From positions 1-20,206 of the IMG/VR virus record IMGVR_UViG_3300017949_001443: DNA of 20,206 nt. One strand, given 5' to 3'. The DNA comes from a virus. Position 1 is the first letter of the stretch. The number at the start of each line of letters is the position of its first letter. Below are positions 10,085-20,206 of this stretch, piece by piece. The notes below the pieces were generated by a model. The model made no database searches. It was not told where the DNA came from and saw only the letters and a program-made list of their open reading frames with translations. A program made the translations under genes and the position numbers.

Positions 10085-10173
10085 AATTGTTTCCTTATTT
10101 TCTCATATTGTTTTTCAGTAATCTTTTTTGCTTGTAAAACTTCAAGATCTTCTTTGCTAAGTCCCCCAGGCAT
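10081..10173 (-). CDS. Possible 30-aa SHOCT-like ORF overlapping the end of queE
   Basis: An ATG at 10173, inside the last codons of queE, opens a 30-codon frame that ends exactly at the start of the next gene (ATGA overlap). The product has SKEDLEVLQAKKITEKQYEK followed by IRKQL, a pattern like the SHOCT mini-domain (helix, Gly/Lys turn, ITxxxxE helix). There is no good ribosome binding site. It could be a coupled mini-gene, or a C-terminal extension of QueE reached by a +1 shift at the G5 run near 10166-10171. It could also be chance coding, although it fills the gap exactly. Confidence 0.35.
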   Translation of the reverse strand: MPGGLSKEDLEVLQAKKITEKQYEKIRKQL

Positions 10174-11116
10174 TTCCGAATAAGCTGATGTGTAGTCTGG
10201 GACTGAATCGCCAGCCTCTTTCCATACACGCTTCTGCCACGTCTTTAACGTTGAGACTATATTCTTCCGAACGTCCTCCAAGCGGCATAAGATATACTGG
10301 ACACTCGATGCCTGCTGCACGATATTCTTCAACAGCTCTATTAACTTCGTCAAAGTCATCCATAGTAGCAACAACAAACTTGAAATACATATCACTGCCA
10401 TCCACAAGGGAATACTCACGAGCAACGTCAGGCTTAATAGCATCACTCCAAGGTTCGCCTGAAACGGAGAGCTTTGGTGAGCAGCTAAATGTGACTTTAA
10501 TTCTATCGTTATCGTTGAGATAATTGAAGAAGTCATCATGTAAAGGTTGTGTAGTATTAGTTTCAATTGTGACATTTTTTAAATCAGCCATTTTAGGATG
10601 TTCAAACAACTCTACATAAAGTCGTTGCCAAGCTAGTAATGGCTCTCCTCCTGTTAAAATAAGATGTACGTCTTGACCATTGTCCATAGTCCACTTGCCT
10701 TCTGGCAGTAAACTAATCAAGTGTTCAACAACTTCGTCTACTTCTGCAAGTTTGTTGAAGTGTTTAAACTCTGGATAGATACTTGCATAAGTATCACAAC
10801 CTGTATGGATAATAGGCAAGTCTTCAAATTTTTCAGTTGTTTTGTGTACACCTGCGTCAAGCAATGCTTTTACTTCTGCATTGTAACGCTGACCTTCTTT
10901 GTGTTGTTCCCAGCGATCTTTTTTAGTGTCAACACCGAAGTTCATACAACGGAAGTTACAACCAAATGTACGTAGGAATACACTGGGTACTCCTACAAAC
11001 TTCCCTTCACCTTGTACACTATAAAATGCTTCACTGTAACGTAGTTTCATTGTTGGTTTCCTGTTAACTGCTTCATAAGAAGGATAACCTTTTTCAAATA
11101 CTGGACTTTCAATCAT
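10157..11116 (-). CDS. queE: QueE, 7-carboxy-7-deazaguanine synthase (radical SAM)
   Basis: QueE converts carboxy-tetrahydropterin to 7-carboxy-7-deazaguanine using SAM and a 4Fe-4S cluster. The evidence is QGEG near residue 35, the cluster motif GCNFRC, TGGEP of the radical SAM core near residue 155, IETNTT near 185, and the C-terminal RLHISLFGNAWG. The cluster cysteines are odd: CxxxC is followed not by xxC but by NFG, and the third Cys appears only 49 residues later in HTGCDTYASI, giving CX3CX49C. The TTG at 11122 is ignored because the ATG at 11116 forms a TAATG junction with folE and has AGGAG upstream, giving 319 aa. It is translationally coupled to folE. Confidence 0.9.
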   Translation of the reverse strand: MIESPVFEKGYPSYEAVNRKPTMKLRYSEAFYSVQGEGKFVGVPSVFLRTFGCNFRCMNFGVDTKKDRWEQHKEGQRYNAEVKALLDAGVHKTTEKFEDLPIIHTGCDTYASIYPEFKHFNKLAEVDEVVEHLISLLPEGKWTMDNGQDVHLILTGGEPLLAWQRLYVELFEHPKMADLKNVTIETNTTQPLHDDFFNYLNDNDRIKVTFSCSPKLSVSGEPWSDAIKPDVAREYSLVDGSDMYFKFVVATMDDFDEVNRAVEEYRAAGIECPVYLMPLGGRSEEYSLNVKDVAEACMERGWRFSPRLHISLFGNAWGT

Positions 11117-11799
11117 TAGCAAGCAAACTCCTGTTGTAATTTAATATTGTCAAAGAACTCTTTCTTTGTACCAGGATCTGTTTTAAACGCACCTTTTAGT
11201 ACAGTTGTTTGTGTAAGTGAACTATGTGCCATAATGCCTCTATTTTCACAGCAACCGTGTGTTGCTTGAATGTACACACCTAAGTGATCGGCGCCAGTTG
11301 CTTTAGCAATCTCACGAGCAATGTCGTTAGCAAGTTCTTCTTGTAGCGTACCACGTCTAGCACACCATTGTGCAATACGTGTATATTTAGAAAGACCAAT
11401 TAGTTTAGCACTTGCAATAATACCAATATATGCTACACCAGATACTGGCTGATGGTGATGCGAACAAACACTTTTCAGTTCACTTCGTACAACTAACATA
11501 CCTTCATAACGATCATCGTCATGATTAGGAAATGCTGTTGCACTTGGAACAGGATCATACCTTCCGCTCATTAATTCATTAAAGTACATTTTAGCAAGAC
11601 GTTTTGCTGTACCTTGTGAGTTAGGATCGTTGTGTCGATCAATTAGTAGTGTGTCTAGTACACCTTCAAATGCAACAGTTGCTTCTTCGATAAGTTCTTC
11701 CTTATCGCCTTTCTGTAGTACTTCTGAAATGTTGTCGCCAGCCCAATAGCGAATGTTTGCATCTTGCAAACGGGCTTTAATTTGTTCTGCTTTGCTCAT
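11116..11799 (-). CDS. folE: GTP cyclohydrolase I
   Basis: FolE opens the imidazole ring of GTP and forms dihydroneopterin triphosphate, the first step of pterin and 7-deazaguanine synthesis. The 227-aa product matches E. coli FolE in length and motifs. SVCSHHHQPVSGVAYIGI near 110-127 supplies zinc ligands C112 and H115 and catalytic H114. IGLSKYTRI lies at 134-142. ATHGCCENRGI at 179-189 supplies H181 and the second zinc Cys (C183). CGGAG precedes the ATG, and an exact-consensus sigma70 promoter lies upstream. With queE downstream in a TAATG overlap it forms a two-gene deazaguanine unit. Folate or tetrahydrobiopterin supply is the alternative use. Confidence 0.93.
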   Translation of the reverse strand: MSKAEQIKARLQDANIRYWAGDNISEVLQKGDKEELIEEATVAFEGVLDTLLIDRHNDPNSQGTAKRLAKMYFNELMSGRYDPVPSATAFPNHDDDRYEGMLVVRSELKSVCSHHHQPVSGVAYIGIIASAKLIGLSKYTRIAQWCARRGTLQEELANDIAREIAKATGADHLGVYIQATHGCCENRGIMAHSSLTQTTVLKGAFKTDPGTKKEFFDNIKLQQEFAC

Positions 11800-12076: not shown

Positions 12077-12419
12077 TTTTATAGTTTCCTTTCTCTGGTA
12101 TCACGTGCCGCACTCCTCCACGAGGATCTTCCATATCACCCTTGCGGCGAGGGATGAGATGTACATGTGGATACATAACAGTTTGACCTGCTTCTTCGCC
12201 TATATTTTGACCGATGTTGTAAGCATTGCAATAACCTTTTTGCACCCAGTCATGGCCCCATGCATAGGCTGCTTTGTAGCACTTAGCCAAATGGTCCCAA
12301 TCTTGTACCTTAGGCACAAAAAGAACATGTCCTTCGGTTACAGGAAAGCCGTCTTTAAATACAGTATATTCTTTGGTATCTATTAGTATGTCCTTCCAAG
12401 GTACTTCGTTAAACTGCAT
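12057..12419 (-). CDS. HIT-family protein (variant histidine triad)
   Basis: A 120-aa histidine-triad fold protein with PVTEGHVLFVPK near 26-37, NIGQNIGEEAGQTV near 68-81 and PHVHLIPRR at 84-92. HIT proteins hydrolyse or transfer nucleoside phosphoesters and phosphoramidates. The usual HxHxH is YPHVH here: the first His is Tyr (Y83), while the nucleophile-position H85 and the following H87 remain. The frame starts with TTG at 12434, but the ATG at 12419 has GAGGA with good spacing and is chosen. It overlaps the end of the upstream glycosylase gene. The substrate is unknown; a nucleotide-salvage role fits the phosphoribosyltransferase two genes upstream. Confidence 0.82.
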   Translation of the reverse strand: MQFNEVPWKDILIDTKEYTVFKDGFPVTEGHVLFVPKVQDWDHLAKCYKAAYAWGHDWVQKGYCNAYNIGQNIGEEAGQTVMYPHVHLIPRRKGDMEDPRGGVRHVIPEKGNYKNETATT

Positions 12420-12789
12420 AAAACTCTTCCTCAATGTATCTTTTTAATTCGTGATCACCTACATTTTCAGGTAGTTCTTTTTTATAAAACAGCCTATAAC
12501 TATCGCTACCGTACTTTCCAATGCCATATAACTCTGTAGCATCTTCGCCGTCCCAATCTTCAAACTGTTCGCTCATTCTATACAGTCTTTCTGCTCGAAC
12601 TCGTTTCATTCCTAACGGTGCAATTACTTCTTCAATCTCGTCTCTTGTTGCATGAAGTAATGCAGTGTGCGTTGGCCATTTAGAAAAGAAAACAGGTAGA
12701 ACAGCCTTTACTTGTTTTCTGCCTGTTTGGTTTAAACACATGACGCCCACCATATGTTGCCAAACATTTTCTACTTGCTGTTGCACCAT
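12409..12789 (-). CDS. MBD4-like HhH-GPD DNA glycosylase
   Basis: A 126-aa HhH-GPD domain that resembles the glycosylase domain of eukaryotic MBD4 more than bacterial MutY or Nth. VGVMCLNQTGRKQ near 14-26 matches the LNRTSG region, APLGMKRVRAERL matches KPLGLYDLRAKTI, and LYGIGKYGSDSYRLF at 87-101 matches LHGIGKYGNDSYRIF. GDHELKRY then supplies the catalytic Asp D112. The Lys of bifunctional Nth is absent, so a monofunctional T:G or U:G mismatch glycosylase is expected. No iron-sulphur Cys cluster follows. Starts at GTG 12804 (GTGA overlap with the upstream stop) and ATG 12789 are both possible. It lies in the queD-led transcript beside a HIT gene. Confidence 0.8.
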   Translation of the reverse strand: MVQQQVENVWQHMVGVMCLNQTGRKQVKAVLPVFFSKWPTHTALLHATRDEIEEVIAPLGMKRVRAERLYRMSEQFEDWDGEDATELYGIGKYGSDSYRLFYKKELPENVGDHELKRYIEEEFYAV

Positions 12790-12800
12790 TAAATCATCTC

Positions 12801-13361
12801 TCACTGTCCGACATTCTCCCAGGGATAAACTAACCAAACATCTTCTTCTGACTTGTTTACTTCATGCACACTGTAGTCTACAGTGCCGTCAAACTCGCTT
12901 GATAAGTTATCTGTAATAGTAGCAAAGCGAACGTTCTTGTGCCATACGCTATCCCAAGTACTTTCTTTTGGTAGACAACTGCTTTGCCAATCCTTTTTTA
13001 TCCAGTTAAATGTAGCACCAGTATCGTTAATATCATCTACAATAAGAATGTTTTTGCGTTTGCTTAGGTCCCAACGAGTTTTATAAATTTCACGATCTTC
13101 TTCGTTTACATAACCAAAAGCATCTTCGCTCATCCAACAGTTACTTTCGCAACCGTTGTCATCTCCGTTATCACGTAAACTAATCTTTAGTGCTTCTCCA
13201 CGCACATTTAACATATTAGATAAAATAGTTGCAGGAACATTGCCGCCTCGTGTAATACCTACAATGTAGTCAGGCTTCCAATTGTCATTATACATTTGCA
13301 GTGCAATGTTTAGGCAAGCACGTTCTATGTCCTGCCACGAATAGTAATGTTTCTTAATCAT
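12801..13361 (-). CDS. Type I phosphoribosyltransferase
   Basis: A 186-aa PRTase with the PRPP-binding signature ILIVDDINDTGAT at 105-117 and an upstream YIVGITRGGNVPA at 32-44, the usual PPi-loop region. Family members join a base to PRPP or the reverse; the closest type by look is hypoxanthine/xanthine-guanine PRTase, but the base-binding hood does not identify the substrate. A Cys-containing insert (NGCESNCWMSED at 70-80) is present. GAGG precedes the ATG, which overlaps the upstream stop (ATGA). In a transcript led by queD it might salvage the guanine released by base exchange; that is inference. Confidence 0.82.
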   Translation of the reverse strand: MIKKHYYSWQDIERACLNIALQMYNDNWKPDYIVGITRGGNVPATILSNMLNVRGEALKISLRDNGDDNGCESNCWMSEDAFGYVNEEDREIYKTRWDLSKRKNILIVDDINDTGATFNWIKKDWQSSCLPKESTWDSVWHKNVRFATITDNLSSEFDGTVDYSVHEVNKSEEDVWLVYPWENVGQ

Positions 13362-14030: not shown

Positions 14031-14328
14031 CGTCAATCTCTCCTGCCTTTATCTTTCCTTCATAATCTTGTTGCACCATATCGTACACTGATTTAAAATT
14101 ACGCCAAACCTTTTCTAATGCTGGATATTGTTTACACATTTTTTCAACTTCACTAGGCCAAATACCATCTTCACCTGTTAAGTTCCAAGTATGGCTATCA
14201 TAACTTACTTCTGATGTATTAATTGTAAATGTACCGTCGTTAAGATATGAAGTATCGATTGTAATGTCTTCACCGCTTACATAATCATCTATATTAATAG
14301 TAATTGTATCAGTTTTTGATTGCGTCAT
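14014..14328 (-). CDS. Conserved hypothetical protein (104 aa)
   Basis: The N-terminal half is rich in Thr, Asp and Ile with alternating hydrophobic residues (TDTITINIDDYV, DGTFTINTSEVSYDSHTWNL), probably beta sheet. The C-terminal half is helical and acidic (PSEVEKMCKQYPALEKVWRN, EIDDDIPF). No family is recognised. The ATG at 14328, with GGAG 9 bases upstream, overlaps the glycosyltransferase end by 20 bases. It lies between the glycosyltransferase and cupin genes. Confidence 0.62.
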   Translation of the reverse strand: MTQSKTDTITINIDDYVSGEDITIDTSYLNDGTFTINTSEVSYDSHTWNLTGEDGIWPSEVEKMCKQYPALEKVWRNFKSVYDMVQQDYEGKIKAGEIDDDIPF

Positions 14329-15370
14329 ACAGTGCCGCTCCACTAAAAAATTCTTTGTTTAGTTTAGTTCTTTGTTTTTCTAAACTGACGAGATAGTCAT
14401 TATAGTTTTCCATGTAGTCGCGAATCTTAGCAACAAGTTCGCCACGATACTTAATATATGAACTCCAGTCTTCAGTCCATTTGCTAGGATACTTAAACTC
14501 TGGTAATGCCATTTCTGTATAGCTCAGTCTATCTGGCACCATAGGAATAGCATCTACAAGTGCGCCTTCGTACCAACTAATGCCTAGTGTTTCTTGTAAA
14601 TTAGCTGAGAACACCATCTTTGCTTCACCTAGCAAGTTATGATATTCGTTCTTTGTAAGCGAACGCTCTTGACAAACTACAAACTCATATTCAGAGAGAT
14701 GATGAGATAAATCACGGAAGATTTCAACTTGTTTTTCAGGAGCAATACGATGCGGAAACAAGATAAGGTTACGCTTGTCCATGCCACTGTAAGTAACAAG
14801 CGATTCTTTCAAATACTCCATAGGCCATCCTACACGTTTTATACTATCGTCTGCCCATACTTCGCTATAGTCAGGTACAAATACGTCTTTAAACATATCA
14901 ATATGAAAGTCTGTAGCAAAGAAGTTATCATCGTAACATTGGAACATTGACATTTCTGCATGACGTACCCAACGAGCATCGCCTATTAGTCGTCCAAGAA
15001 AGTCTTGAGGATCATAGCTGCCAGCATGCCAGAGACCGCCGACATTAATATCTGTGCCAAGAAGGCTAGCCATGTATCGTAACTGAATAACGGTAGGGTT
15101 CCAAGCATCAGTGTAAAGGAAATAGTCCCCACTATTAATTTTGCCGTCGCAGAAGAGTCGACCAATCTGCTCAAGCTGATTAGACTTGTAAACATTTGTA
15201 CCTCCAAAATTGAGAAACGCCCCAGGTGTTGTAGCCTGCGGCGCCTCTCCTCCACTTATTACAACAACTTTTTCATTCGTAGCTCGTTGCAGTTGACGCG
15301 GAAGGTGTTCTTTCCACTGCTTTGTATAGCGTGTGTCAACTGCTTCAATGTCTACGATGTAAATAGTCAT
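14309..15370 (-). CDS. GT-B glycosyltransferase
   Basis: A 353-aa protein with GT-B features. A Rossmann-like N-terminal part has IYIVDIEAVDTRYTKQW and GGLWHAGSYD near 111-120. The C-terminal nucleotide-sugar domain has NLILFPHRIAPEKQ at 201-214, AKMVFSANLQ at 250-259 and an E-x7-E motif (E260 to E268). GT4-like enzymes transfer sugar from a nucleotide donor. The acceptor is unknown: host surface glycan, virion protein or modified DNA base are all possible. It is unlike T4 alpha- or beta-glucosyltransferases as far as I can tell. The ATG forms a TAATG overlap with the upstream 70-aa gene, with GGAG before it. It is co-transcribed with queD. Confidence 0.8.
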   Translation of the reverse strand: MTIYIVDIEAVDTRYTKQWKEHLPRQLQRATNEKVVVISGGEAPQATTPGAFLNFGGTNVYKSNQLEQIGRLFCDGKINSGDYFLYTDAWNPTVIQLRYMASLLGTDINVGGLWHAGSYDPQDFLGRLIGDARWVRHAEMSMFQCYDDNFFATDFHIDMFKDVFVPDYSEVWADDSIKRVGWPMEYLKESLVTYSGMDKRNLILFPHRIAPEKQVEIFRDLSHHLSEYEFVVCQERSLTKNEYHNLLGEAKMVFSANLQETLGISWYEGALVDAIPMVPDRLSYTEMALPEFKYPSKWTEDWSSYIKYRGELVAKIRDYMENYNDYLVSLEKQRTKLNKEFFSGAALYDAIKN

Positions 15371-15603: not shown

Positions 15604-16011
15604 TTAATTTGGTTTAGGATAAAAGATTGAACAGCCATTTTCATTATCTTCAGCTACGCTGATCTCTACAAAGCGGCCGGGATACTTTGCAGAAATTTCA
15701 TTGTACAAGTCATCTGCGATCATCTCACAGCTCTTGTGATTTAACTCTAGTACGCCTTCAACGTCATAGAGTCGTTGCATCCAGCGTTTAAACTGAATGA
15801 ACTCAATATCGCGATCGTTATGAAATACTTCAATACGAACACGAAAGTGAAAGATATGGCGATGTGGAATACCAAGGAATGATACATCATCCCAATCGCC
15901 TGTTGCTAGTGCAGGGTCTTTGTCAGCACCTGGATACATATGTACACCTTCTTTTGCAAAGGTAACCCAAATACTGCGTTCTGCTTTACGCATTACATTG
16001 TCTTGCGCCAT
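15604..16011 (-). CDS. queD: QueD-like 6-pyruvoyl-tetrahydropterin synthase homologue
   Basis: QueD converts dihydroneopterin triphosphate to 6-carboxy-tetrahydropterin. With the ATG at 16011 the protein is 135 aa. H24, H50 and H52 (GVHMYP, PHRHIF) match the zinc ligands H23, H48 and H50 of rat PTPS in spacing, H92 (LNHKSC) matches H89, and E121 (VAEDNENG) matches E133. The catalytic Cys just before the HxH pair is missing: the segment is DVSFLGIPHRH. C95 and C127 lie elsewhere. The frame extends to 16068, but that would leave almost no leader after the promoter, while 16011 has GAGAGAAGAAG 8 bases upstream. It may be a diverged QueD or act on another deazaguanine intermediate. Confidence 0.78.
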   Translation of the reverse strand: MAQDNVMRKAERSIWVTFAKEGVHMYPGADKDPALATGDWDDVSFLGIPHRHIFHFRVRIEVFHNDRDIEFIQFKRWMQRLYDVEGVLELNHKSCEMIADDLYNEISAKYPGRFVEISVAEDNENGCSIFYPKPN

Positions 16012-16077
16012 TTTAAAATCTTCTTCTCTCATTCTACGTGCCATATAATCGTGGTAGCGTTCTTGCATTGTCTTTAT

Positions 16078-16106
16078 AGTATACTTTCATTCTATAACTT
16101 TGTCAA
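16078..16106 (-). promoter_or_regulatory. Sigma70-type promoter for the queD-led transcript
   Basis: TTGACA (16101-16106), 17 bases, TATACT (16078-16083) on the - strand: 11 of 12 consensus bases. The -35 box lies inside the last codons of the upstream 177-aa gene. Initiation near 16071 gives a leader of about 60 bases to the preferred queD start at 16011. Confidence 0.75.
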
Positions 16107-16620
16107 GGCCATATTTCGTCCAATCCGTAAATTTATTACGGTCCATTAGATCATGTAGGCTGTGACACCAAACACCTGGATTGGTTGCGTTAAAATCCTT
16201 ATCATCCAATTTAATCATGGTGTTATAATTATACTGTTTGATGTAAGGAAGGGGAATACGAATCTGCGGAATAAAGTTATCGCACTCAATCATACGACTT
16301 TCAAGCAGTGCTTCCGCATGACTGTAAGGAAGATCTAAACTACAAAGAATTCCCTTGTCAAGGAATGTCATAACCAGTTCTTCCCATTCGTCCCATGCAT
16401 CTGCATCTTTTGGAAAGTTTACTCCTGGGTTGAAACTGTGATTAGCACCAAAGAAGATATGTTCACACTCTTCGTCAATAAAATGTTTTTCAATTAGATA
16501 GACGTCTTGTACACCAGTTACAAATAAAGTTTTCTTTCCAATAGCAGGAGTCTTTTCAACTTCTACACCTGTAAAGAAGATAATATCTTCTGCTACACCT
16601 GTTTCGTAATCTCGTTTCAT
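16087..16620 (-). CDS. Conserved hypothetical protein between dpdA and queD (177 aa)
   Basis: A well-ordered alpha/beta-looking protein: FFTGVEVEKTPAIGKKTLFV, HIFFGANHSFNPG, ILCSLDLPYSHAE, FIPQIRIPLPYIKQ, IKLDDKDFNATNPGVWCHSL. I recall this as strongly conserved in T4-like marine phages but do not know a function and see no standard motif. Candidate polar residues are those around KLDDKDF and GVWCHSLHD near the C terminus. The ATG overlaps the YdcH-like gene's stop (ATGA) and has AAAGG upstream. Lying directly between dpdA and queD, it is a candidate for an unassigned deazaguanine step. Confidence 0.75.
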   Translation of the reverse strand: MKRDYETGVAEDIIFFTGVEVEKTPAIGKKTLFVTGVQDVYLIEKHFIDEECEHIFFGANHSFNPGVNFPKDADAWDEWEELVMTFLDKGILCSLDLPYSHAEALLESRMIECDNFIPQIRIPLPYIKQYNYNTMIKLDDKDFNATNPGVWCHSLHDLMDRNKFTDWTKYGLDKVIE

Positions 16621-16820
16621 CCTAGTGCCTTTAGTTCTGTTTCAAGTCTGTGAATTTCATCTTTAAGCCAAAGTTTTTGGGTTTTTTTACGGTTAATTGC
16701 ACCGTCGTCTTCCCATTTATTATACATGTCTTTTATCTCGTCGTCAAGCTTTCTATGACGTTTATATAACTCTTGTAGATAATTTGCAATTTTATTGTGC
16801 TTCTCCGTGAAGTTGCTCAT
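16617..16820 (-). CDS. YdcH/DUF465-like small helical protein (67 aa)
   Basis: The sequence ELYKRHRKLDDEIKDMYNKW, then DDGAINRKKTQKLWLKDEIH and RLETEL follows the DUF465 (YdcH) pattern: H-x-x-LD-x-x-I, an acidic turn, then a K-rich helix ending in LKDEI. These are short helical hairpins of unknown function. The ATG at 16820 has GAGGA 8 bases upstream, and its start lies inside the end of the dpdA-like gene (29-base overlap). Confidence 0.65.
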   Translation of the reverse strand: MSNFTEKHNKIANYLQELYKRHRKLDDEIKDMYNKWEDDGAINRKKTQKLWLKDEIHRLETELKALG

Positions 16821-18336
16821 CTTCAAGTTCCTCTAATTTAGTTTCATCAAGCTCGTTTTCATCGACAGTATCACTTTCATCGACTTCAAATAAATTATCA
16901 AAAAATGTGCTTGCATTTACAGTCTTTTTACCAACTGCACCCCTAGTACCAGGAATAGCCATCCAAAAACGGCTATGCTCGTCGACAAGTGCTAGTGCCT
17001 TGTCTTTGTCGTCTGTTGCAAATATTTCTTCCACAACATCTCTAAAAAATACCCTGTCAAATTGCTCTTGAACAAGCATGCGCGGAACGCATCCATTGTC
17101 GTATTGTCTGTTTGCTTCTTGTACTGCATTAATGTGACTCCATACATTATGACCCATTTGGATAGCGTAGGAAAAACTATCCCAAGACGTTTTGCCCTCT
17201 TTACCTATTTTGTTTAGGTCTCCTGGAGCATACGTACAAACGTCTGATACTTTGAGTTCGGCAGTAATGGGACTGTCTTCAAAGTTTTTAAATATCCCAT
17301 CTGATATAACAGCATCTCTAAACAAGCGTTGATCTGTAGCATATTTCTTATTGTCAACTGACGGCACCATACGATACGTCCATTTGCTTCGGTCTTCAGT
17401 CTCATTCTGAATGTAGATTTGTCCATTCGCGGTTGCCAAGAAAGGACTAGCACAGTCAAAAGTAATAGTATAGTTTTCATTATGATGTTTCCGTACTGCT
17501 CGTTGAATATCAGTTAGTAGTGTAGCCCACTCTAGTTTGCTTGTACCTAGGAAGTGCATAAAGTCTTGCACACCTTTTTCAAGTAAACCGTCATAGCGTA
17601 GTGCAATCAATCTTTTAAGTACAAGATGTACATCGCACATATTCTGACCACCCATTGACCACCCATTAAAATGTTCATTTGGATATTGTTTAGGATCACT
17701 GTACTTCTTCATACGCTGATACCAATCTTCTGCGTCAGCGTGATTTTCACCTTGTAGAACGTTTAAAAATTTACAGTTGCCGTTGCGGTTACGAATAAAC
17801 CAATCGTTGTTAATGTAAGTACCTTGTACTGCTTCCATGTAACTAGTGATACCAGTTGCTTTTTGTCCTGCAGGCGAACGTGCTACCCACGCAGGAATAT
17901 CAAGGATCATACCATAGTCCATATAAGCATCCATCCACGTAAGCACCTGCTCACGTTTCTTTTGTGCTTTTGGACAGCTAGGATCTTTCCAATCACCTTC
18001 CCAAACGCCTTTACCAATCTGGAAGCCGCCTGAGTCGCCTAGTATCCAACTGTTGTTACGATCTCTGTTACGCACCATATCTTCTTTTGGAGCATGCTTG
18101 TTTACATCAAGATCGGCATGACCTGCAGAGTAAAGTGTCCAGTGATAATTAAACAATCCATCCTGCTTATTTAGGTAGTTAAGACTTTCAACACCATTTG
18201 TAAAATTTGAAGGAATACGTGCAGGATCTACATAGTTATCAAAACGTTGTTTACCTACGTAAGTGGCATAAAAGCCACTTAACGCAGGAAGAAAAACAGC
18301 ATAATCTTTTTGTGTTGCAGTTAAGTCTCTATTCAT
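16792..18336 (-). CDS. dpdA: DpdA-like 7-deazaguanine DNA transglycosylase (TGT superfamily)
   Basis: A 514-aa TGT-superfamily protein, predicted to swap guanine in DNA for a 7-deazaguanine base. DSGGFQ at 101-106 gives the general-base Asp D101, LDIPAW near 145-150 the base-recognition region, VLQGE near 193-197 the IVQGG equivalent, SMGGQ at 227-231 the GG loop and TFDCASPF at 292-299 the nucleophile D294. The CxCxxC zinc motif of tRNA enzymes is not seen. The C terminus is unusual: STFFDNLFEVDE at 476-487 resembles clamp-binding peptides of T4 (hydrophobic-D-x-L-F), followed by an acidic tail to the end. The start forms a TAATG junction with the clamp gene. DNA rather than tRNA as target is inferred from the phage context and folE/queD/queE. 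Confidence 0.85.
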   Translation of the reverse strand: MNRDLTATQKDYAVFLPALSGFYATYVGKQRFDNYVDPARIPSNFTNGVESLNYLNKQDGLFNYHWTLYSAGHADLDVNKHAPKEDMVRNRDRNNSWILGDSGGFQIGKGVWEGDWKDPSCPKAQKKREQVLTWMDAYMDYGMILDIPAWVARSPAGQKATGITSYMEAVQGTYINNDWFIRNRNGNCKFLNVLQGENHADAEDWYQRMKKYSDPKQYPNEHFNGWSMGGQNMCDVHLVLKRLIALRYDGLLEKGVQDFMHFLGTSKLEWATLLTDIQRAVRKHHNENYTITFDCASPFLATANGQIYIQNETEDRSKWTYRMVPSVDNKKYATDQRLFRDAVISDGIFKNFEDSPITAELKVSDVCTYAPGDLNKIGKEGKTSWDSFSYAIQMGHNVWSHINAVQEANRQYDNGCVPRMLVQEQFDRVFFRDVVEEIFATDDKDKALALVDEHSRFWMAIPGTRGAVGKKTVNASTFFDNLFEVDESDTVDENELDETKLEELEDEQLHGEAQ

Positions 18337-19064
18337 TACTTACTCTGAGCTGGAAGAATATAAGCGTATTTTGCCATACCCGAATCTACTGAAATTTGCA
18401 TTGCACCTTGATCTGAAATACTCATAGTTAAATCACCATCTAGATTTAAGATACTTTGTACTTGTGCTACTGGCCAACTCCAGGTGTGTTGTAAACTTCC
18501 CTCAACACCGTGTTGAAAAATAAACTCGCCTGCGTGTGTGCTTGCATCACCAAAGCTAAACACTAGATTGCCATCTTCTGTTTTTACTTTGAAAACAGTT
18601 TCTTCTGAATGTGCTGCACTTTGTAATTTCATACGTGCAATAGATGCTACGCTTGGTGTAAAACTTACATTCCAATTTGCACCTTTGAACTTAACAGTTT
18701 TAAGTTTTTCCTCAATGATTGCTTTGTTCATAAAGCGATAATCATTCTGAAAATCACCTGCGGCATTTTCAAAGTGAATGTGTGTCGGAACTGTTTCACC
18801 ATTACGTTCTGCTTCGACAACTTCAATCTTTGCGTCCTTTTGGTACTCAGGATTTTTTAAATGCAAATTTAGTTTGTCTAAGTTAGGCATACCAAATGTG
18901 CCTTTAAACTCTTGTATTGATGAGTGTGTTTGTGCTGATAAAATAACAGAACGATCTTCTGCCATTGAGTCAATTTGTGTGCCTTCTTCGTTGCTAACTT
19001 TAACCAAACTAAGAAATCCTAGTGAGTGTGTATGTGCAACAATATCTTGTAAAATGTCTTTCAT
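18336..19064 (-). CDS. gp45: DNA polymerase sliding clamp, T4 gp45-like
   Basis: A 242-aa ring-clamp subunit, close to T4 gp45 (228 aa). Two beta-alpha-beta-like halves are visible. The first includes IVAHTHSLGFLSLVKV, MAEDRSVILSAQ and GTFGMPNLDKL at 55-65. The second includes FTPSVASIARMKLQSAAH, GNLVFSFGDAS and a C-terminal MQISVDSGMAKYAYILPAQ, the usual clamp ending. A trimeric clamp would tether the replicative polymerase and, in T4, activate late transcription together with gp33 and gp55. GGAG precedes the ATG, which overlaps the epimerase stop (ATGA). An exact-consensus promoter lies just upstream. It begins the transcript carrying the dpdA-like gene. Confidence 0.85.
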   Translation of the reverse strand: MKDILQDIVAHTHSLGFLSLVKVSNEEGTQIDSMAEDRSVILSAQTHSSIQEFKGTFGMPNLDKLNLHLKNPEYQKDAKIEVVEAERNGETVPTHIHFENAAGDFQNDYRFMNKAIIEEKLKTVKFKGANWNVSFTPSVASIARMKLQSAAHSEETVFKVKTEDGNLVFSFGDASTHAGEFIFQHGVEGSLQHTWSWPVAQVQSILNLDGDLTMSISDQGAMQISVDSGMAKYAYILPAQSK

Positions 19065-19846
19065 GTGACTGTTTCTCCATTGAATAAAGTTATTATATTG
19101 TCTAAGCCTTTGTTTGTCAAGAACTTTTCTACTGTATATTTAGGTTTAAAGCCTAGTGCCTTCATTTTTTCTGTATTAGCGCAAGTCCATTCTCGCTCTC
19201 CTGGGGTATTTAGACGCACCGGCAAATCAGGTGCTAAGTCTTGGATCCTAACAGGATGCCCCGTACCAATATCAACCACTCCGTTTACATGTGTTTTTCT
19301 AATTAGTATTTCGATTGCATCTAGAACATCTTCAATATGTATAAAATCTCTATAATGTCTGGTAACATATTCTAATTTACCATTTTTTAATTTATTAAAG
19401 AACATGTTTTCTCTAGGACAATTATCGGAATACACTGTATGAAAACGCATACCTAGTGTATTTGGATAACGCTCCCCTAGTTCTTCAAGTATGTATTTAC
19501 TAGCCGCATAAGGGTTCAAATCGGGCTCGTATGCGCTCGAACTGCTCGCATACAGTATACGTGTATCAGGATAGCGTTCAAACAGTCTGCGGCTTGCTTC
19601 TACATTGTTAAACCAGTACCCTGCAGGATCTTTTAAACTTTCACGTACACCACTTTTACCTGCTAGATGTATAATTAGATCAAACTCTTCTTTTAAATCA
19701 CATGTGAGCAAGTCTTGTGTTTGGTTTAGCTTATCTCTATCCCAACCGTCAATTAAGTCAATACCTATTACTTGATTGTTCTTTTTTAATCTTTTTAGTA
19801 ATGCAGAGCCTATAAAGCCTCTATGTCCTGTTAGTAAAATCTTCAA
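19061..19846 (-). CDS. NAD-dependent epimerase/dehydratase (extended SDR)
   Basis: With a TTG start at 19846 this is a 261-aa extended SDR protein. It has ILLTGHRGFIGS at 3-14 (GxxGxxG NAD site), LIIHLAGKSGVR near 57-68, ILYASSSSAYEP near 97-108 and the catalytic YAASK at 113-117, then RDFIHIEDVLDAI near 166-178. Such enzymes epimerise or dehydrate nucleotide sugars. The frame extends to an ATG at 19873, but AAGGA lies 8 bases before the TTG and the TTGA overlap with the upstream stop is typical of this genome, so TTG is preferred. It pairs with the upstream PMM-like HAD gene, suggesting nucleotide-sugar supply. Confidence 0.82.
   Translation of the reverse strand: MKILLTGHRGFIGSALLKRLKKNNQVIGIDLIDGWDRDKLNQTQDLLTCDLKEEFDLIIHLAGKSGVRESLKDPAGYWFNNVEASRRLFERYPDTRILYASSSSAYEPDLNPYAASKYILEELGERYPNTLGMRFHTVYSDNCPRENMFFNKLKNGKLEYVTRHYRDFIHIEDVLDAIEILIRKTHVNGVVDIGTGHPVRIQDLAPDLPVRLNTPGEREWTCANTEKMKALGFKPKYTVEKFLTNKGLDNIITLFNGETVT
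19092..19120 (-). promoter_or_regulatory. Exact-consensus sigma70 promoter for the clamp-dpdA transcript
   Basis: TTGACA (19115-19120), 17 bases, TATAAT (19092-19097) on the - strand match the sigma70 consensus at all positions. The promoter is embedded in the 3' coding part of the epimerase gene and gives a leader of about 21 bases to the clamp ATG. Confidence 0.8.
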
Positions 19847-20206
19847 TTTGCTATTCCTTGTTCTTGGAACCATTGCAGATATTCTAAAGTGTTACCCCAG
19901 TGAGATATAGCTCTGTGATGATGTACAATTTTTGCTAATGGATAGTCATTACCGCCTTCATCCATAGAGTCTCCAAAAAACCATAAAACATCTTCCGGAT
20001 CAAAATCTTTTTTAATTTGACTTTTGTCCATTCCTTTTGGACTTATATCTAGTCCTGTTTCTCCGCCTACTTTTGCATCGAGTTCTGTAAAGATTAAATT
20101 AAAGTTATGTGCAATGAGATCACGCTCGTTATATTCTGTGTCCCACGTAACATATTTTGCACGTTCTATTTTATCTGCGTTACGTCCTACAATACTAAAG
20201 TTACAC
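19843..20206 (-). CDS. Phosphomannomutase-like HAD phosphatase, 5'-truncated by window edge
   Basis: The frame is open to the right window edge; at least 120 C-terminal residues are present. The segment runs FSIVGRNADKIERAKYVTWD, then VGGETGLDISPKGMDKSQI, then FFGDSMDEGGNDYPLAKI. This order resembles eukaryotic-type phosphomannomutase (PMM2/SEC53), with its IGR region, FPDGWDK and FFGD-x-x-x-x-GGND motifs of the HAD-IIB fold. The Lys after the G-x-D and the GDxxxxGGND metal site are conserved. The N-terminal DxDxT nucleophile lies outside the window. It is probably a hexose-phosphate mutase or phosphatase feeding sugar-nucleotide synthesis with the adjacent epimerase. An ATG at 20031 is internal and not the likely start. 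Confidence 0.72.
   Translation of the reverse strand, partial: CNFSIVGRNADKIERAKYVTWDTEYNERDLIAHNFNLIFTELDAKVGGETGLDISPKGMDKSQIKKDFDPEDVLWFFGDSMDEGGNDYPLAKIVHHHRAISHWGNTLEYLQWFQEQGIAN

Follow-up and report, generated by a model that had tools for sequence, protein, structure and literature searches.

A QueD-like T-fold protein encoded by marine phage DNA, a probable enzyme of a 7-deazaguanine DNA-modification pathway

Cui et al. 2023 (NAR) reportedly predicted that DpdL is a decarboxylase of 7-carboxy-7-deazaguanine (CDG) in phages carrying 2'-deoxy-7-deazaguanine. Phage 7-deazaguanine DNA modification systems have been described that combine FolE, QueD, QueE and QueC with DpdA; in the survey of these systems, QueC was present wherever a phage had the complete preQ0 set, and one phage in which QueC alone was lacking was considered possibly to carry the QueC substrate, CDG (PMC6884629). 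Phage PA5oct has previously been listed with a deazaguanine synthesis and incorporation system (PMC7824862). The locus analyzed here lies in a 20,206-base virus record from a marine phage, and genome context is readable only within this fragment of approximately 20 kb. We refer to the whole of it as the window. Like the surveyed systems, the window encodes FolE, QueE and a TGT-fold DpdA; it differs from them in that a confident QueC is generally missing from phages of this kind, and in that a QueD-like protein and a linked glycosyltransferase are present. With DpdL, to which it is likened by context, the QueD-like protein would share an expected pathway position after QueE, with DpdA present and, in most of the family, no QueC, whereas the window's branch has an additional GT4 glycosyltransferase and a different DpdA. 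By this analogy, the QueD-like protein most likely belongs to the predicted DpdL-type step, in a form of phage 7-deazaguanine DNA modification to which a glycosyltransferase is linked. Compared with QueD itself (E. coli, 4ntk/3qn9), it has the T-fold, three zinc-type histidines, the anchoring glutamates and the pathway neighborhood in common, but it has an invariant Leu in place of the catalytic Cys, neither the Asp-His pair nor a match to the Pfam PTPS model, and normally a separate QueD alongside.

The gene is an intact ORF (Table 1), and the start given in the earlier note, position 16011, is Met20 of the full frame. Because residues 1-28 show coding conservation in near relatives and are predicted to form a helix in the AlphaFold model, 16068 is the likely start, and residues are numbered from it throughout (the former C95 is C114 and the former C127 is C146). 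The protein has no match in Pfam or NCBIfam; PF01242, the Pfam PTPS model, did not match it at E 0.1, and the gathering score was not reached. In PHROGs, residues 31-149 match the phrog_17812 profile at E 5e-30. Members of phrog_17812 include the phiST and ACP17 proteins and are annotated there as being of unknown function; the function proposed below would apply to this widespread phage family. Cultured phages that encode a member include PA5oct, Paride, ACP17, phiST, Phosso, X1, BUCT-ZZ01 and MA9V-3; further members are found in hundreds of IMG/VR contigs and a few bacterial contigs.

Table 1. Genes of the window discussed in the text, in order of position.
Feature	Coordinates	Strand	Remarks
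QueE-like radical SAM 7-carboxy-7-deazaguanine synthase	10157..11122	minus	phrog_2076, E 1e-52
FolE, GTP cyclohydrolase I	11116..11799	minus	PF01227, E 3e-37; phrog_2197
HhH-GPD base-excision glycosylase domain protein	12409-12837		PF00730
Phosphoribosyltransferase-domain protein	12801..13361	minus	PF00156
GT4-type glycosyltransferase	14309..15370	minus	linked to QueD-like gene in most loci
QueD-like T-fold protein, phrog_17812 family	15604..16068	minus	154 aa; intact ORF
177-aa protein, unknown function	16087..16620	minus	between QueD-like gene and DpdA; linked in 84 of 193 loci
DpdA-like guanine transglycosylase	16792..18336	minus	514 aa; DSGGFQ and FDCASP motifs; TGT fold
NAD-dependent epimerase/dehydratase, GDP-mannose 4,6-dehydratase-like	19061..19873	minus	only in glycosyltransferase-containing loci
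Phosphomannomutase	19843..20205	minus	PF03332; cut by window end

An AlphaFold model of the QueD-like protein, a step suggested in the earlier note, was built from 42 aligned relatives (pLDDT 88.2) and has a predicted T-fold with the topology of QueD and PTPS. Its best structural matches are QueD and PTPS chains, among them E. coli QueD (4ntk; Z 12.0, 2.3 Å over 110 residues, 20% identity) and P. horikoshii PTPS (2dj6; Z 12.4), and the Foldseek E value is 2.5e-4. Sequence comparisons gave less. A PDB search with the single protein returned chance matches only, a PDB search with the family profile placed the PTPS PH0634 at E 0.49, and comparison of the family profile with that of QueD gave Prob 75 over the C-terminal half only, so that the relation to QueD is based mainly on fold. 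T-fold aldolases also appear among the structural matches, and FolE is encoded nearby; both would be compatible with an enzyme of pterin or folate metabolism, resembling dihydroneopterin aldolase or PTPS-III, that has nothing to do with DNA modification. The aldolase matches are lower, however (Z about 10.5, 8% identity), and the QueD-like gene is linked to QueE and DpdA, which makes such an enzyme highly improbable.

We aligned the family with QueDs taken from Magnetospirillum and from phages of the same kinds and compared their residues. The zinc-type histidines, H43 (in GVH) and H69 and H71 (in HRH), are all invariant, in agreement with the triplet described from the first reading, and are putative metal ligands. 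Two glutamates, E115 (in an SCE motif found in 167 of 167 family ORFs) and E140, align with the invariant ligand-side Glu residues of the QueDs, which in PTPS and QueD are the pterin anchors. The "His/Glu pair" of the earlier note is therefore half kept: the Glu stands, but the catalytic Asp-His of QueD lies in a loop that is deleted in the QueD-like family. In the aligned QueDs this pair (D56-H57) and the catalytic Cys are invariant. The lack of a Cys ahead of HxH, the observation from which this work started, holds across the family, with none at positions -8 to -1 in 167 ORFs representing 64 distinct motif strings. All 64 strings have Leu at -4, which in the window protein is Leu65, at the position of the QueD Cys.

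Also invariant in the family are R86, E89, C114 and H83, the last of which falls within the family-specific motif H-N/D/E-x-R-D/E-x-E-F. The position of C114 adjoins the pterin-anchoring Glu, and several phage QueDs that retain their own catalytic Cys also have a Cys there (GCE), which argues that C114 is not a displaced catalytic Cys. It is thus an unlikely substitute nucleophile, the role that had been suggested for it, given also the loss of Asp-His and the presence of separate PTPS/QueD genes. C146, the other Cys named in the earlier note, occupies a position that varies across the family and is rejected as catalytic.

This loss of the QueD catalytic residues, together with clustering of the gene with QueD and QueE, would fit a QueD paralogue that has lost activity and serves to bind or regulate QueD, QueE or DpdA. 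On the other hand, the zinc-type histidines, the ligand Glu residues, H83, R86, E89 and C114 stay invariant across very divergent members, suggesting that the active site is under selection, and we regard an inactive paralogue as improbable. The combination of lost catalytic residues with a retained metal site and ligand pocket may instead be read as a clear case of a T-fold enzyme that has shifted downstream within the pathway it came from.

A search for a second QueD was among the checks named in the earlier note. Each of the 11 complete phage genomes examined that encode the QueD-like protein also has a separate PTPS/QueD-family gene. In 10 of these 11 it passes the Pfam cut-off; in the remaining genome, Vibrio phage D479, the match is below cut-off only, and the protein is long and divergent, still with Cys and HGH. 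Of 24 IMG/VR records that are 100 kb or longer, 16 have a separate PTPS-family gene; the other 8, several of them relatives of the window, have no QueD even by a phage-QueD profile. Roughly half of those relatives closest to the window that reach 100 kb lack a visible QueD, so that host supply or incomplete records must be assumed for them. In phiST, ACP17 and many contigs, QueE, QueD, FolE, the QueD-like gene and DpdA lie together in a cluster, and dozens of loci, as well as Magnetospirillum, have QueD and the QueD-like gene in one and the same cluster.

These distributions bear on whether the protein might be a true 6-carboxytetrahydropterin (CPH4) synthase that uses C114 or another residue as nucleophile. 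Its QueD fold and zinc-type site, and the several large marine relatives without another QueD, would fit such an enzyme. Against it, the Asp-His pair is lost besides the Cys, a Cys at the C114 position is also found in QueDs with a catalytic Cys, and a separate PTPS/QueD-family gene is present in every complete genome and beside the QueD-like gene in many loci. Given the lost catalytic residues and the separate gene in 11 of 11 genomes, the protein is very probably not a CPH4 synthase. We would therefore caution against taking members of this family for QueD in predictions of phage DNA modification that rely on gene content.

Confident QueC is generally absent from the phages that carry the QueD-like gene. 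Only 2 of 37 phage or virus records have a protein over the Pfam cut-off for QueC, D479 clearly and a second record (G001) marginally, and the protein of the latter looks like a TilS-type ATPase. On inspection, most of the weak QueC matches proved to be PP-loop ATPases of other kinds. D479, G018 and G020 (loci L176, L180 and L181) encode divergent proteins of the PP-loop ATPase type in which a QueC-like CxxC motif is present. The pathway context of most of the family is thus FolE, QueD, QueE and DpdA without QueC, the exceptions being the QueC match of D479 and several records that lack QueD.

Since the pocket and metal ligands of QueD are kept, its catalytic residues are lost, QueD is normally present and QueC is usually absent, the protein is best read as acting on CDG. 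The earlier note had raised a different reaction of this kind, on 7-carboxy-7-deazaguanine, and the residue pattern, the co-occurring QueD and the generally missing QueC favor it. We propose that the protein is a QueD-fold metalloenzyme of the phage 7-deazaguanine DNA-modification pathway, most likely a CDG decarboxylase, and assign this reading a probability of roughly 0.6. By analogy with the predicted DpdL step, decarboxylation of CDG to 7-deazaguanine would most likely be the reaction, as it is the simplest one. CDG would come from FolE, QueE and a QueD that either the host supplies or the phage encodes at another site. E115 and E140 would hold its 2-amino-4-oxopyrimidine edge, placing the 7-carboxylate at the putative His3 zinc site, and CDG would be converted to 7-deazaguanine with the C7 proton donated by one of the invariant residues, for example H83 or C114; the choice of acid is a guess. 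The DpdA-like transglycosylase would then swap guanine in DNA for the product, on which, in the window's branch, the GT4 glycosyltransferase may act further.

The product of the DpdA-like gene is identified by motif and predicted fold. Its model (pLDDT 87) matches tRNA-guanine transglycosylases, with Z 19.5 to 2ash, and D101 and D294, the Asp residues of the DSGG and FDC(x)P motifs, are invariant. The Pfam TGT model does not match this protein, a negative that we do not count as evidence because the model misses all of these phage DpdAs. The QueE-like protein is below cut-off in the NCBIfam QueE models, and it has an insertion of about 45 residues between the second and third radical SAM Cys residues (GCNFRC...TGCDT); the insertion is common to several related phage QueEs, while others have normal spacing.

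What plain decarboxylation leaves unexplained is the linked glycosyltransferase. Among 193 loci of at least 8 kb with a QueD-like gene, a GT4-type glycosyltransferase is found in 156 and a phiST-type DpdA, which we infer to be a DpdA from its position and family behavior, in 27, with no overlap. When the comparison is confined to loci of 12 kb or more whose DpdA can be assigned, 78 in number, the split is 64/1 versus 0/13 (Fisher p 6e-14, a value that overstates independence because the loci are related). New here is this glycosyltransferase linkage of the QueD-like gene, which never occurs with the phiST-type DpdA. It is an association and not proof of function, with 27 loci in the phiST-type branch and lineages that differ. 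NAD-epimerase genes lie near the glycosyltransferase in 54 loci and in 0 of the 27 phiST-type DpdA loci, and sugar-nucleotide genes of the dehydrogenase and aminotransferase types follow the same branch pattern. In BUCT-ZZ01, two glycosyltransferases flank the QueD-like cluster.

These counts, the restriction of sugar-nucleotide genes to the glycosyltransferase branch and a Magnetospirillum cassette of glycosyltransferase, QueD-like gene, DpdA and QueD could point to another kind of tailoring, in which CDG, or the base in DNA, is made glycosylatable for GT4 by something other than simple decarboxylation. However, the same invariant residues are found in the 27 phiST-type DpdA loci, which have no such glycosyltransferase, so the reaction should not depend on the glycosyltransferase and is probably the same in both branches; moreover, no redox or group-transfer cofactor partner is constantly linked. 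We consider such tailoring unlikely, and a CDG decarboxylase remains our preferred reading. The glycosyltransferase, if it acts on the modified base, probably works downstream of the QueD-like protein. As a sugar acceptor, the decarboxylated base might offer C7 for C-glycosylation, a purely speculative possibility.

A fuller pathway can be sketched for phages and Magnetospirillum, in which the QueD-like protein prepares position 7, a DSGG-type DpdA inserts the base and GT4 adds a sugar to give glycosylated 7-deazaguanine DNA; we put it forward tentatively, as a minority possibility. If the glycosyltransferase linkage is functional, it would point to a hypermodified guanine of which we know no report. 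The glycosylated base, if real, would be the DNA counterpart of mannosyl-queuosine in tRNA. Its sugar might derive from mannose, as the window has a GDP-mannose-dehydratase-like gene and a phosphomannomutase fragment, both adjoining the DpdA region (19061-20205).

The cassette order of glycosyltransferase, QueD-like gene, DpdA and QueD is seen in some Magnetospirillum genomes on long bacterial contigs (L170, L172, L173 and L175), where the QueD is a normal one (PF01242, E 1e-22). One further ORF belongs to the cassette and a tyrosine recombinase lies near it; a CoiA-like nuclease gene is upstream in L172 and L173. The cassette is possibly a mobile DNA-modification or restriction island.

Two other genes of the window recur in related loci. 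The phosphoribosyltransferase gene is found beside QueE and FolE in both the glycosyltransferase and the phiST-type DpdA branches, and its product might possibly salvage the guanine released by DpdA exchange. A family similar to the HhH-GPD glycosylase protein is present in 16 loci, all of the glycosyltransferase branch.

Bakedbeans and MA9V-3 have proteins in which the QueD-like domain is fused to a further region at its N-terminal side (fusion coordinates L095 7230-8408 and L100 7503-8381); in MA9V-3 this region looks HNH-like by eye. The domain has C-terminal extensions in L205 and L215. A 459-aa QueD-like protein in BFVD (A0A6J5LEZ6) is titled alcohol dehydrogenase, a title that suggests a further fusion.
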